Shown here one piece after another: positions 26,952-33,667 of a stretch of 64,000 nucleotides of DNA. The translations under genes and the position numbers were made by a program. The notes below the pieces were generated by a model. That model was given only the letters and a program-made list of their open reading frames with translations. It ran no database searches and was not told the origin of the DNA. The DNA comes from Candidatus Mailhella merdavium (lineage in GTDB: Bacteria; Desulfobacterota; Desulfovibrionia; Desulfovibrionales; Desulfovibrionaceae). The first letter of the stretch is position 1. Each line of letters starts with the position of its first letter. The stretch lies in contig DWXS01000074.1 of the NCBI GenBank assembly GCA_019119045.1, forward strand, positions 1 through 64,000, given 5' to 3'.

Positions 26952-28616
26952 ATGTCCATGAACGCCCATGTGCAAACCGCCGTCGACAAGACCCGTGACG
27001 TATGGTCGCGGCTCGGCAAAGTTCAACGTATCGCCATCGTCGGCGTTACCGCATTGCTGTTCGCCATCTTCGCAGCCTTCATGCTGTGGATCACCCGACC
27101 TGATTATCGGCCGCTGTACACCAAACTCAGCCCGGAAGACGCCAACCGCGTTGTGAACATGCTCCAGACCGAAAAGGTTTCCTATCGTCTGGAAGACAAC
27201 GGCTCCACCGTACTTGTTCCGGCCGATTCCGTATATGACATGCGTATCAAGATTGCGGGCGAAGGCAATCTCGTAGGTCAGGGCATAGGCTTTGAAATTT
27301 TTGACGCCGTGCAGATGGGACAGACGGAGTTCGTTCAGCGCATCAACTACCAGCGCGCCCTGCAGGGCGAACTGGCCCGCACCATAAGCGAATTCCCCAA
27401 TGTGGACAGTGCCCGCGTTCATCTGGTCATTCCGCAGCGCAGTCTGTTCATTGAAGAACAGCAGTCTCCTTCCGCCTCGGTCGTCGTTCGTCTTGTCGAT
27501 CCTTCCGCAAAGATGAGTCCCCGGGAAATCAAGGGGATGGTCAATCTCATGACCATGGCCGTGGAAGGACTGGATGAGGGACACGTTTCCATCACGGACA
27601 GCAACGGCAAGGTTCTCTTTGCTCCGGAAGACGAAACGACCGGACTCAACAACGCTCATCTGGAATACCGGCTCAAGCTGGAAAGCAGCCTGGAACAGCG
27701 CATCAACGAACTGCTTTCTCCCGTACTCGGCCCCGGAAAGATGATCGCCAAGGTCAACGCCACGCTGGATTACAGCCAGCGCACAATCCGCAGAGAAATT
27801 TATGACCCCGACACTTCGGTAGTCCGTTCCGAACAGCGTTCCGAAGAACAGCAGACCGGTCGTGCCAATCTCGAAGGCGGTTCCACAGACGTCAACTTCA
27901 GAGGCGACGGTCTGGGCGGCTCGCTCAGCAGCCAGGAAGGCAACCGCGAATCGCGTACCATAAACTATGAAATCAACAAGGAAGAACACACCATCGTCGG
28001 GCAGATGGGCGAAATCACCCGCCTGACCGTGGCTGTGGCCGTGGACGGAACCTATACGAAAACGGCAGAAGGAAGCTGGGAATACACCCCCCGCAGCGAA
28101 CAGGAACTCGAACAAATCCGTCAGCTCGTCGCCAATGCCGTGGGCTTCTCCGCTGAACGCGGCGATACCATCGAAGTCAGCAACATGGCATTCGGTGAAA
28201 GCGATATTCCCGTTGAACCCAATGCGGCCGAACTGCTGGCCCAGTTCGCGGAACGCATGGGACGGCCTCTGCTCATCGCCTTCATCTCCTTCCTCTTCCT
28301 CATGCTTGTGGTACGTCCTCTGGTTCTTGCTCTGGTTCGTCCCAAGGTGGAAGCCGGCGAAGTTGTAGAAGGTCTGGAAGGTCTGCCCGCGGCGGAAGAA
28401 CAGTACGCTCTGTATGAAGCTCAGGAGCAGGAAGCCCGCGCAGCCGAGGAAAATGCCAAGGCTCTGGCCGAATCGGGAGAAGACGGCGGCTATGGTCTCG
28501 AATCCGGACTCAGCCTTGACGATATCAAGGCCCGTGCCCTTCAACTGGCAGAACGCAACATTGAACAGACCGTGTTCGTCATACGCTCCTGGATGAAAGA
28601 AGGCGTCAAAAACTGA
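26952..28616 (+). CDS. fliF: flagellar MS-ring protein FliF
   Basis: PDYRPLYTKLSPEDANRVVNMLQ; C-terminal FliG-binding tail LAERNIEQTVFVIRSWMKEGVKN. Confidence 0.97.
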   Translation: MSMNAHVQTAVDKTRDVWSRLGKVQRIAIVGVTALLFAIFAAFMLWITRPDYRPLYTKLSPEDANRVVNMLQTEKVSYRLEDNGSTVLVPADSVYDMRIKIAGEGNLVGQGIGFEIFDAVQMGQTEFVQRINYQRALQGELARTISEFPNVDSARVHLVIPQRSLFIEEQQSPSASVVVRLVDPSAKMSPREIKGMVNLMTMAVEGLDEGHVSITDSNGKVLFAPEDETTGLNNAHLEYRLKLESSLEQRINELLSPVLGPGKMIAKVNATLDYSQRTIRREIYDPDTSVVRSEQRSEEQQTGRANLEGGSTDVNFRGDGLGGSLSSQEGNRESRTINYEINKEEHTIVGQMGEITRLTVAVAVDGTYTKTAEGSWEYTPRSEQELEQIRQLVANAVGFSAERGDTIEVSNMAFGESDIPVEPNAAELLAQFAERMGRPLLIAFISFLFLMLVVRPLVLALVRPKVEAGEVVEGLEGLPAAEEQYALYEAQEQEARAAEENAKALAESGEDGGYGLESGLSLDDIKARALQLAERNIEQTVFVIRSWMKEGVKN

Positions 28617-28811
28617 ACGTCCCATCCGCCTTCCTTCCCTGCGCCATAAACATGAACATTGCCGGGGGGATTGAGTCCCCCCGGTAAAATGTTTTCTGAC
28701 GGGTTTTCTCGACATGCCGGAAGACGCATCGGCGCGGTATTCCGCAGTTCTTCCTCAGAAAGAGCATCCAGAGTTTCCCGTCTCAATACCCAAATAATCG
28801 AGAGAGTCCTC

Positions 28812-29033
28812 ATGGAAAAGCCCAGCTCTTCCCTCCCTCATTTCATGAACAAGTCCGGCGTCGCCAGGGACAGTGCAAACCCGTCCCCCGAAGGAAAAAA
28901 AGCCGCGCAGCCTGAAGGACGCAACGCCTATCAGCAGCGCGTCGACCAGCTCAAAATACGTATCGCAGAGCTGAGTCAGCGCAATATGGAAAACACCTTA
29001 CGCATCCTCCGAACCTGGATGAAGGAAAGATAA
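28812..29033 (+). CDS. 73-aa protein ending in a FliF-type C-terminal (FliG-binding-like) motif
   Basis: MEKPSSSLPHFM...KIRIAELSQRNMENTLRILRTWMKER resembles the FliF tail; gagag SD; directly downstream of fliF. Confidence 0.75.
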   Translation: MEKPSSSLPHFMNKSGVARDSANPSPEGKKAAQPEGRNAYQQRVDQLKIRIAELSQRNMENTLRILRTWMKER

Positions 29034-29107: not shown

Positions 29108-30907
29108 ATGGCAATCGACATGCTCGAATATTTCATCTTTCTTCGTCCTGCGAGGCCTGTTTCTTTTTTCCACCGTCAGCCTTTGGCCGGCATGGCCTGC
29201 GGCCTTTTTCTTGCACTATCCATGCTATGTTTTCCGTTCTGTGCCGAGGCGGCAAATTCAGAACAAGCCCCCCCAAAAGAAGCATCCCAAAGTACAGCCA
29301 AAGCTGCTGCCCCTGACGGCAGCACTTCCCCCGAGCTTTCCGAGCAGGTTCCGGACACGGAGGCAAGCGCAAGCGAACCTGTCTTCGGTATGGCCGACGT
29401 GGAGGCCAAAGCCCGCGCTCTGGCCGAATCCGAGTTCGAAAATCCGGACGGCAAGGTTCCGGCGTTTCTGCTCGACATCAGCTATGATCAGTGGAGAAAA
29501 ATCCGCTTCAAACCGGACTCTTCCCTGTGGCGGAATGAAGACTCTCTGTTCGAGGCCCAATTTTTCCATCCCGGCCTGTTTTACAACAGACTGGTTTCCA
29601 TCAACGTTGTACAAAACGGCAAAGCAGAAAAGCTCACCTTTTCTCCAGATATGTTCGAATATGGGGACAAGGCTCTGGCCGATAAAGTCAGGCAGACTCC
29701 GCTGGACTTTTCCGGATTCCGTCTGCATTTTCCCATTAAAAACCCGGATTACAAGGACGAAGTTGTTGTTTTTCTCGGCGCCACCTATTTTCGTGCAGTG
29801 ACCCGCGACTCTCAGTACGGTCTCTCCGGCCGAGGTCTGGCCATTGATACGGCTCTGGCCAGCGGCGAGGAGTTTCCTTATTTCCGTGAATTCTGGCTGG
29901 TCAAACCGGAAAGCGGGGCACAGACCATGACCGTTTACGCTCTCATGGATACCCCCAGCATGACCGGCGCATATCGTTTCGACATAACGCCGGGAGCTTT
30001 CACCGTCATGGATACCAGCTGCACGCTGTTTGCCCGCAAAGGAGCAAAACCCGTGCAGAAAATCGGACTGGCTGCGCTGACGAGCATGTTTCTGTTCGGA
30101 GAAACGGAAAACGGCCGTTCCGGCGATTATCGCCCGGAAGTACACGATTCCGACGGACTGCTCTTTCTGGATACGGACGGAAACTGGTTCTGGAGTCCTC
30201 TTGCCAACCCTCCCCGTCTTGCAATCAACGAATTTCGCCTCGATAATCCGCGAGGTTTCGGGCTGATGCAGCGGGACGGCTTTTTCGATCACTATCAGGA
30301 TCTGGAAGCCCGTTATGAAATGCGCCCCTCCCTATGGGTGGAACCCAAGGGAGACTGGGGACCAGGCAGACTCGAACTCATTGAAATACCTTCGGAAGAA
30401 GAAATTCATGACAATATGGTTGCCTTCTGGGTTCCGGACAAAAGCGTCAGTCAGGCCAAGGTGGAAGGTCAGGCCGAAGCCCCCAGGCTGTACCCTGAAA
30501 CCATGTCCTACGCCTATCGCCTGATCTGGATGCCTCCGGGAAGCAATCCGCACGGGCTGGGCTGGGCCGTCGCCACGAGAACAGCAAGACAAGAGGACAG
30601 GCTGCGCTTCATTATTGATTTTGAAGGCGGACTGCTGGACTTTCTGCCCGGAGATACGGGCCTGAGTTCCGTTGTCAAAATTCCAGAGTCCGTACAGCTG
30701 ATTGAAAAACAACTGAGCAAGAATCCTGTAACGGGAGGCTGGCGTCTGGTCTTCATGGTGCGCCTGCCCAAAGAAGAAGGGGTTCTGCAAAGCATCCGTG
30801 CTGCCAGAGACGGCGCCCCGAGTCTGCGCTTCAAGGCGGTTCTTAAAAAAGGCGAGAACCTGCCGGATCCTCTTACGGAAACATGGTTCTATGATCTTCA
30901 GCTCTGA
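29108..30907 (+). CDS. opgG: periplasmic glucan biosynthesis protein OpgG/MdoG family
   Basis: Signal peptide; YDQWRKIRFKPDSSLWR, FHPGLFYNRLVSINVV, YGLSGRGLAIDTALASGEEFPYFREFWLVKP. Confidence 0.92.
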   Translation: MAIDMLEYFIFLRPARPVSFFHRQPLAGMACGLFLALSMLCFPFCAEAANSEQAPPKEASQSTAKAAAPDGSTSPELSEQVPDTEASASEPVFGMADVEAKARALAESEFENPDGKVPAFLLDISYDQWRKIRFKPDSSLWRNEDSLFEAQFFHPGLFYNRLVSINVVQNGKAEKLTFSPDMFEYGDKALADKVRQTPLDFSGFRLHFPIKNPDYKDEVVVFLGATYFRAVTRDSQYGLSGRGLAIDTALASGEEFPYFREFWLVKPESGAQTMTVYALMDTPSMTGAYRFDITPGAFTVMDTSCTLFARKGAKPVQKIGLAALTSMFLFGETENGRSGDYRPEVHDSDGLLFLDTDGNWFWSPLANPPRLAINEFRLDNPRGFGLMQRDGFFDHYQDLEARYEMRPSLWVEPKGDWGPGRLELIEIPSEEEIHDNMVAFWVPDKSVSQAKVEGQAEAPRLYPETMSYAYRLIWMPPGSNPHGLGWAVATRTARQEDRLRFIIDFEGGLLDFLPGDTGLSSVVKIPESVQLIEKQLSKNPVTGGWRLVFMVRLPKEEGVLQSIRAARDGAPSLRFKAVLKKGENLPDPLTETWFYDLQL

Positions 30908-31092
30908 CGTCGTTTCCTGATACTACCGGGCAAGCGCCGGAATTCCGACAGGCGGAAATTTTTCTTCACAACAGTCTTCATTTTTGGAGCTGTTCGAGAA
31001 AAATACTCCGCCATTCCACCATTTTCCAGAAGCCGCACGCTTTCCGCCATTGCTTCAAGCGGAAGGACTCGGCAAAGAGGAAGGAACTTCGC

Positions 31093-31575
31093 ATGAAACA
31101 AGCTCCGCAATCTTCCGATACGCCAGCTCCCCAGGAAGATGCTGTCGCCGACGTCACCCTGCCGGACTTTTCACTGCCGGACGAACGCGGGCAGCGTACC
31201 CGTGATCGGGTGCTGCTCTATGTGCGGGGCATGGACGTAGCCCCTCTGCGCAGTCTTGCCTTTGCAGCGGAAAGTCTGGGCCGCTCCGGCTCTTCCCCAT
31301 CGCAGGCAGAAGCCATGCACAGTTTATGGGAAGTTCTGCGCGAAGAGGGTCGCCTGGAAGGACGGGAATACGGTCTGTACGACGGCGAAAGCGGAAAGCT
31401 GGACTCCGCCCCCCCCATGAACCGCCATACCATGATTGCGGAAAAACTGGATCGCAAGCCCTGGCTTACGGCCATAGGACGGCTGTTCTCCGGACATGCC
31501 TCTGTTTCGGAAGTCAATACGGCCTCTCCCTCCGATCGGAATCATACTGCCCATGGAGAACGCCCTCATGACTGA
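31093..31575 (+). CDS. separate OpgH/MdoH N-terminal cytoplasmic domain-like protein
   Basis: ...SAPPMNRHTMIAEKLDRKPWLTAIGRLF resembles the MdoH N-terminal segment; 8-nt overlap with the next ORF. Confidence 0.65.
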   Translation: MKQAPQSSDTPAPQEDAVADVTLPDFSLPDERGQRTRDRVLLYVRGMDVAPLRSLAFAAESLGRSGSSPSQAEAMHSLWEVLREEGRLEGREYGLYDGESGKLDSAPPMNRHTMIAEKLDRKPWLTAIGRLFSGHASVSEVNTASPSDRNHTAHGERPHD

Positions 31576-33667
31576 CAACCTGCGCTGGTCCGGCCCCGCC
31601 ATCCGACGCCGTCTCTGTCTGCTTGCGCTGATTATTCTGCCCTCGCTGCTTGCAGCCCATACCATGTATCTCATGCTGCCGCACAAAGGCGACGAAAATA
31701 TCGAACTGTTCATGGTTGCCCTTTTCGGAGTGCTGTTCGCGTGGATTTCCGTCGGATTCTGGACTGCCGTGGCCGGAGTCTGGGTCACGCTGCGCGGCTA
31801 CGATCGATTTACGGTCAGTCTGGGCTGCCCCTCCTCTCTGGAGCTGCCGGATCCCGAAGTCCGCACCGCCATACTCTTTCCCGTCTATAACGAAGATGTG
31901 AAAAGCTTTATGGCGGGAATCCGTACCGTTCTGCATTCTCTGCGCGATACGGGGCAGGCTTCCCGCTTCGACATCTTCATTCTCAGCGATTCCACCAATC
32001 CTGAATCCTGGATTGAAGAAGAGGAGGCATGGCACGAATTCTGCCGGGATGAACAGGCGTTCGGGCAGGTGTTTTACAGGCGGAGAAGAAGCAATCTCAG
32101 CAGAAAAAGCGGAAATATTGCCGACTTCTGCCGCCGCTGGGGCGCAAACTATCGTTACATGATTGTTTATGACGCAGACAGCCTGATGCGCGGCTCCACC
32201 ATGGTCCGCATGGTACAGGCAATGGAGCTGCATCCTTCGATAGGTATTCTCCAGACGCCTCCAAAGGCCATGAACAGCCGCTCGCTTATTTCCCGCGTTC
32301 AGCAGTTCGCCAACCATCTTTACGGCCCCATATTCGCAGCGGGCCTGCATTACTGGCAACTCGGCGAAGCGCAGTACTGGGGACACAACGCCATTATCCG
32401 CGTGGCCCCCTTCATGGCCCACTGCCAGTTGCCGCGTCTGCCCGGCAAAGGCCCCCTGAGCGGTGAAATATTGAGTCATGACTTTGTGGAATCCGCGCTG
32501 ATACGCAAGGCGGGGTATGGGGTATGGCTGGCCTACGAACTCGACGGGTCATGGGAGGAAACACCCCCCACGCTGATTGACGAACTGATCCGCGATCGCC
32601 GCTGGTGTCAGGGAAACCTTCAGCACAGCAGACTCATTTTTGCACACGGCTTCTTTCCCACGCATCGGGCCTTGTTCGTCAACGGCATCATGTCGTACGG
32701 TTCGGCTCTTCTCTGGGCTTTTTTCCTGATTGTAAGCTCGCTTCAGGCAGTTGTGGAAATACTGGTTCCTCCTACCTACTTTACCAGCACGCGCACACTT
32801 TTTCCCGTATGGCCCACATGGTATCCTCAATGGGCCTTGACACTGCTCAGCAGCACGGCGGTTCTTCTCTTCCTGCCCAAACTGCTTGCTCTGATCCTGA
32901 CGACGGCCAAGGGAGCCGCACGAGATTTCGGCGGAATATGGGCCATGACCTGCGGCGTACTGGGAGAAATCATCGTCTCCACCTTCCTTGCCCCGGTACG
33001 TATGCTGTTTCACAGCCTGTTCGTCATCACAACACTGCTGGGCTGGAGGGTAAGCTGGAACACTCAGAACAGAGGAGACACGGGAACAAGCTGGAAGGAC
33101 GCTCTGCGCTTTCACTGGTGGGGAACGCTGCTCGGTCTCGTCTGGGGAGGAATGATATGGATCGTCAATCCCGGCTTCTTCTGGTGGCTCTCCCCCATTG
33201 TGGCAGGATTGGCTCTCTCCATTCCCCTTTCTGTCTGGACCAGCCGCCGCAGTTGGGGTGAGGCCGCACGAAAACTGGGCTTTTTCCTTACGCCTCCTGA
33301 AATTCATGCCCCTGACGAAATTGCAGCGCTGGACAAGAACCTGCGCCGTCCTGCTCCCTACTCTCCCTTCCCCCTTTCCCGCAGACAGGGCTTCATCCGG
33401 GCCGTGGTCATCCCAAGCGTACACGCGCTGCATATTTCCCTGACACGGCATCGCAGCAGACGCCGCCCCGAACATGCGGAAAAAATGAAGGAACTTGAAG
33501 CCAAAGCCCTGGCTCTGGGGCCGGATGCGCTGGATCGCAAGACAAAGTGCGCCATTCTTTCCGATCCTGAAAGTCTGCATCGTCTTCATGTTCAGGTCTG
33601 GGAACTGGAAGACGGCCCTCAGGCCGCGCAATGGGGGCTGTGCCCCGACGGAAGGGAAAAGGACTAA
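31568..33667 (+). CDS. opgH: glucans biosynthesis glucosyltransferase OpgH/MdoH (membrane catalytic part)
   Basis: RTAILFPVYNEDV, FDIFILSDSTNPE, FYRRRRSNLSRKSGNIADFCRRWG, WGHNAIIR, LSHDFVESALIRKAGYGVWLAY. Confidence 0.95.
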   Translation: MTDNLRWSGPAIRRRLCLLALIILPSLLAAHTMYLMLPHKGDENIELFMVALFGVLFAWISVGFWTAVAGVWVTLRGYDRFTVSLGCPSSLELPDPEVRTAILFPVYNEDVKSFMAGIRTVLHSLRDTGQASRFDIFILSDSTNPESWIEEEEAWHEFCRDEQAFGQVFYRRRRSNLSRKSGNIADFCRRWGANYRYMIVYDADSLMRGSTMVRMVQAMELHPSIGILQTPPKAMNSRSLISRVQQFANHLYGPIFAAGLHYWQLGEAQYWGHNAIIRVAPFMAHCQLPRLPGKGPLSGEILSHDFVESALIRKAGYGVWLAYELDGSWEETPPTLIDELIRDRRWCQGNLQHSRLIFAHGFFPTHRALFVNGIMSYGSALLWAFFLIVSSLQAVVEILVPPTYFTSTRTLFPVWPTWYPQWALTLLSSTAVLLFLPKLLALILTTAKGAARDFGGIWAMTCGVLGEIIVSTFLAPVRMLFHSLFVITTLLGWRVSWNTQNRGDTGTSWKDALRFHWWGTLLGLVWGGMIWIVNPGFFWWLSPIVAGLALSIPLSVWTSRRSWGEAARKLGFFLTPPEIHAPDEIAALDKNLRRPAPYSPFPLSRRQGFIRAVVIPSVHALHISLTRHRSRRRPEHAEKMKELEAKALALGPDALDRKTKCAILSDPESLHRLHVQVWELEDGPQAAQWGLCPDGREKD

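Follow-up and report, generated by a model that had tools for sequence, protein, structure and literature searches.

Introduction

The joint between FliF and FliG carries all of the torque of the flagellar motor, and the two proteins are treated as a fixed pair. Lynch 2017 and Xue 2018 (as cited in PMC11087270) established that the C-terminal tail of FliF contacts the N-terminal domain of FliG (FliG_N), and the tail has been seen co-folded with FliG_N (PDB 5TDY and 5WUJ). In Salmonella, FliF_C wraps FliG D1 and transmits torque, and a FliF33:FliG34 rotor has been proposed (PMC11087270). On their own, FliG domains are unstable (PMC11236974). Two further proteins invite comparison. FlgV of the Campylobacterota is a small accessory flagellar protein of the MS/C-ring junction that occurs in one lineage only (PMC10655999). 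The FliG-interacting domain of FlhF is soluble and binds FliG early in rotor assembly at a place other than that used by FliF (i.e., the middle/C-terminal domains), with FliF binding left open (PMC11236974).

We analyzed a stretch of 64,000 nucleotides from Candidatus Mailhella merdavium (contig DWXS01000074.1; here called the window), in which a 73-aa open reading frame (ORF) directly follows fliF. Like FliF_C, the encoded protein contains a 31-residue two-helix sequence, aligned without gaps, and shares with it the hydrophobic positions and the tryptophan. Unlike FliF_C, it is a separate, soluble protein rather than part of a membrane ring protein, and it has a variable N terminus and extra positive charge. 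FlgV differs in having transmembrane helices and forming its own ring, and it has not been described as a FliF-tail homologue; the FlhF domain differs in its fold (three strands and a helix). The FliF tail element itself is already known, and what is new is its occurrence as a stand-alone gene, of which we found no description in the open-access literature. Flagellated Desulfovibrio, Mailhella, and their kin all carry this gene and, in all likelihood, produce a detached version of the tail by which FliF grips the rotor, the element that joins the two rings of the motor.

Results and Discussion

A stand-alone FliF tail next to fliF

The features of the locus are as follows.

26952..28616, + strand: fliF, encoding the MS-ring protein (554 aa; Pfam YscJ_FliF, 8e-61; YscJ_FliF_C, 5e-43)
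28515..28607, + strand: FliG-binding tail of FliF (LDDIKARALQLAERNIEQTVFVIRSWMKEGV), aligned without gaps to the tail of the small ORF
28659..28687, + strand: terminator-like hairpin in the gap between fliF and the small ORF (13-pair stem, T-rich tail; intergenic fold z = -2.5)
28812..29033, + strand: small protein with a stand-alone FliF tail (73 aa; ATG start; pI, about 10.3)
28812..28931, + strand: variable N-terminal extension of the small protein, not alignable across genera
28932..29030, + strand: conserved part of the small protein with the two-helix tail, from near YQQRVDQLKIRIAELSQRNMENTLRILRTWMKER onward (the conserved alignment core)

The genes flgB, flgC, and fliE lie upstream, and mdoG and a glycosyltransferase gene (MdoH-like) lie downstream. 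These mdoG- and mdoH-like periplasmic glucan genes (29108-33667) directly follow the small ORF, and homologous ORFs occupy the same place in a relative (G017).

FliF of the window ends in ...KARALQLAERNIEQTVFVIRSWMKEGVKN, and the small protein ends in KIRIAELSQRNMENTLRILRTWMKER. By BLASTP, the latter matched its own FliF with 13 of 29 residues identical and 23 of 29 positive (E = 2e-8), and the alignment of small and FliF tails extends over 31 columns without gaps, which bears out the claim of an earlier note on this DNA that the ORF ends in a mimic of the FliF tail. When the small protein was searched against its own genome, the FliF tail (2.5e-4) was the sole other match below E = 0.1. The tail has the helix-kink-helix sequence of FliF tails, with the conserved N/H-M and W positions, and the small proteins keep the hydrophobic positions -25, -22, -18, -15, -10, -6, -3, and W0. 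We scored tails with a matrix derived from 58 FliF tails that were assigned to non-carriers, a few of which may belong to carriers through tail-parsing misses that leave the picture unchanged; the mean scores were 27.8 bits for the small tails, 25.1 bits for the FliF tails of the carriers, and -83 bits (s.d. 14.5) for shuffled small tails.

At 73 aa and without a Pfam match, the protein lacks the periplasmic YscJ/FliF domains and the two transmembrane helices of an MS-ring FliF, and no long hydrophobic segment is obvious in it. No family in Pfam or NCBIfam covers the protein or its homologues. The N-terminal extension is probably disordered, as its counterpart in a homologue was modeled by AlphaFold2 with pLDDT values of <50. 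The 73-aa ORF is best read as a partial paralogue of fliF, of ancient origin, in which just the FliG-binding tail is retained.

The gene has a single origin and is under purifying selection

Searches with the single protein and with a profile both uncovered stand-alone copies in other genera. We surveyed 288 Desulfovibrionaceae genomes, setting a profile search for the small protein against a Pfam search for FliF. A stand-alone copy was located directly 3' of fliF in 65 of the 66 FliF-positive genomes of four genera: all three species in the genus of the window, both in g7, all three in g40, and 57 of 58 in the Desulfovibrio genus g41. The single exception (G196) is not counted as an absence because its contig breaks off right at the stop of fliF, and two further g41 genomes with marginal FliF matches (G140 and G150) were left out of the count. 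One of the two g7 genomes (G108; contig C197; L052 and L118) should not be taken as an independent case, since it is nearly identical to the window, with a FliF 99% identical to the window's, and its contig may be mis-binned; FliG was not found in its bin. In other genera, every one of the matches listed (to about E = 1e-6) was FliF itself. No stand-alone copy was present at the non-carrier loci inspected or, outside the carrier group, in a phylum-wide sample of 395 genomes.

When the tail was left out of the FliF tree, the 26 sampled carriers formed one clade (support, 100/98), which requires one change. The small gene was thus gained once, and no loss was seen among FliF-positive members. 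The core of the small protein is under purifying selection. The window and L118, a near relative, differ in the core by six synonymous and no nonsynonymous changes; in most close pairs, the dN/dS of the core is 0 to 0.14, and the one pair at 0.27 owes that value to four changes.

These data bear on the reading of the ORF as a nonfunctional remnant of a fliF duplication. It is clearly derived from the FliF tail, and its N-terminal half is not conserved. However, the gene has a single ancient origin, is intact in all inspectable FliF-positive carriers, evolves under purifying selection, and has a conserved overlap with fliF, leaving the remnant reading next to no probability. A decayed fliF duplicate is ruled out by the intact copies in relatives, where the ORF is neither absent nor frameshifted, by the low dN/dS, and by the FliF tree. 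We regard the ORF as a conserved separate gene.

The small gene lies between fliF and fliG in most carriers

In g41, the gene order is fliF-small-fliG, with an overlap of 14 to 32 nt between the fliF stop and the small ATG; the same order, also with an overlap, is found in G107. The window contains no fliG, as the earlier note had observed, and the fliG of this genome is located on another contig (C91), where FliH- and FliI-type genes come after it. In a Taurinivorans-like genome (G057; 2.17 Mb in one contig; G+C, about 43%), fliG is 1.15 Mb from fliF. Taurinivorans muris has polar flagella (PMC10507020). Hence, fliG moved away in Mailhella and in the Taurinivorans-like genome while the small gene stayed beside fliF, and the ORF occupies the usual fliG position in the window because fliG had moved. 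Of the proposal that a FliF-tail mimic stands in the place of fliG, the mimic survives as a conserved and constrained gene. The substitution does not, since most carriers have the small gene between fliF and an adjacent fliG; replacement of fliG is ruled out by this adjacency in the Desulfovibrio genus and G107.

The hairpin of the window (28659-28687) stands where most relatives have overlapping fliF and small genes, and expression of the small gene may therefore be uncoupled there.

The usual overlap also bears on whether the protein is a negative regulator or decoy that competes with FliF for FliG, limiting flagellar number or delaying C-ring assembly. In its favor, the tail pattern of FliF recurs here on a soluble protein, and polar flagellates regulate both the placement and the assembly of their flagella, with FlhF also gating FliG (PMC11236974). 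Yet tight coupling to fliF would be odd for a switchable inhibitor, and neither a regulatory domain nor linkage to a regulator was seen. We consider a decoy distinctly unlikely.

The two tails change in parallel

In the Mailhella and Taurinivorans-like genomes, R-12, N-11, and mostly T-7 are found in both the small and the FliF tails, while Desulfovibrio has H-11 in both; positions 7 and 15 of FliG_N likewise set Desulfovibrio apart from the rest. Parallel lineage changes are as expected if both tails meet the same FliG surface, and they are suggestive only, as they represent a single lineage contrast. Tail identity was 0.347 within genomes and 0.348 between genomes. Since there is no within-genome excess, the parallel change is not due to gene conversion still acting on the two tails. 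The FliF tail of Desulfovibrio has itself drifted from the family consensus (DNHMEQVV..VRGWM), and the small tail keeps the more canonical EQHMDQAVRLIKRWL.

The tail could instead have been re-purposed for a partner other than FliG_N (e.g., another armadillo-like protein, FliF itself, a membrane lipid, or a checkpoint kinase). Arginines gained at several non-hydrophobic positions raise the net charge of the small tails to +3.0, versus -0.1 for the FliF tails of carriers, and the small core is somewhat less constrained than FliF's own tail (pooled pN/pS, 0.29 versus 0.17; 1326 non-independent pairs). Against this, the hydrophobic positions are as conserved as those in FliF, and the tail changes by lineage in parallel with that of FliF. 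We judge re-purposing to be very improbable.

Structure prediction

We folded homologues of the window's small protein with AlphaFold2. Each query came from a natural sequence that carries the small ORF and fliG in one frame, with the intervening stops read as serine. Without FliF-FliG rows, the readthrough chain was modeled with a pLDDT of 69.1 and a pTM of 0.52. A different, trimmed query with 15 FliF-FliG readthrough rows reached a pLDDT of 86.8 and a pTM of 0.70 (contacts not visible), a gain that is not creditable to docking alone because the two runs differ in both query and rows. In the latter model, the tail is predicted as a helix-kink-helix (pLDDT, 84 to 94). The matches from a fold search were FliG chains of FliF-FliG complexes, in none of which the tail could be seen at the FliF site, and a sequence profile search of solved structures returned only coiled-coil noise. 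The readthrough model with paired rows is consistent with FliG_N binding. From homology, parallel evolution, and structure prediction, we infer that the small protein binds FliG_N.

A candidate rotor-assembly factor

Since FliF_C wraps FliG D1 and isolated FliG domains are unstable, a soluble partner for FliG is plausible. We somewhat favor, from sequence comparison and modeling, a role for the small protein as a soluble FliG_N-binding rotor-assembly factor (i.e., a chaperone or placeholder), although the chaperone or placeholder part follows more weakly than FliG_N binding. The protein would be made together with FliF, translationally coupled to it in the usual arrangement, and the soluble tail would co-fold with FliG_N. 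It would most likely keep FliG_N folded and assembly-competent, tune the loading of FliG onto the MS ring, or both, until the membrane-bound FliF tail finally takes over FliG_N. The presence of the gene with FliF in 65 of 66 genomes, its restriction to one clade, its low dN/dS, and its kept hydrophobic positions argue for this role. However, one might expect the gene for a dedicated FliG chaperone to move together with fliG, and it stayed with fliF (one event); an assembly factor also leaves the extra positive charge of the small tail unexplained.

Alternatively, the protein may be a permanent rotor subunit, its free tail capping those C-ring FliG subunits that lack a FliF tail and so solving a FliF:FliG mismatch. 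The ratio proposed for Salmonella indicates that the two proteins need not be present at 1:1 (PMC11087270), H. pylori has a 39-fold C-ring and, where the MS and C rings meet, an FlgV ring (PMC10655999), and coexpression with fliF fits, as do the kept hydrophobic positions. On the other side, none of the other Desulfovibrionaceae checked has the gene, and a search for a C-ring structure from this family found none. We regard a permanent subunit as rather unlikely; if it were the case, the C-rings of this lineage could hold more FliG than FliF.

Compared with these roles, the assembly factor remains our preferred reading. Because this lineage has a further FliF tail that is not attached to the ring, it lends itself to natural tests of FliG loading, of FliF/FliG number matching, and of the pacing of rotor assembly, and the small gene is an unannotated, lineage-marking flagellar gene of gut sulfate reducers.

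Flagellar loss and locus decay

In the genus of the window, 15 species without FliF are also without the small gene. Most of the sampled species of this genus (Mailhella; g1) have no FliF, which suggests that flagella were lost repeatedly, or early, within it. Among the FliF-negative members of the clade, the small gene was not found, save at one decaying flagellar locus (G133:C1, L106:3647-4684). There, the beginning of fliF runs into the tail of the small protein, apparently at a shared QRV, and a truncated fliG follows. Given the decay of this locus and the truncation of its fliG, G133 provides no evidence for a functional natural fusion of the small protein with FliG.
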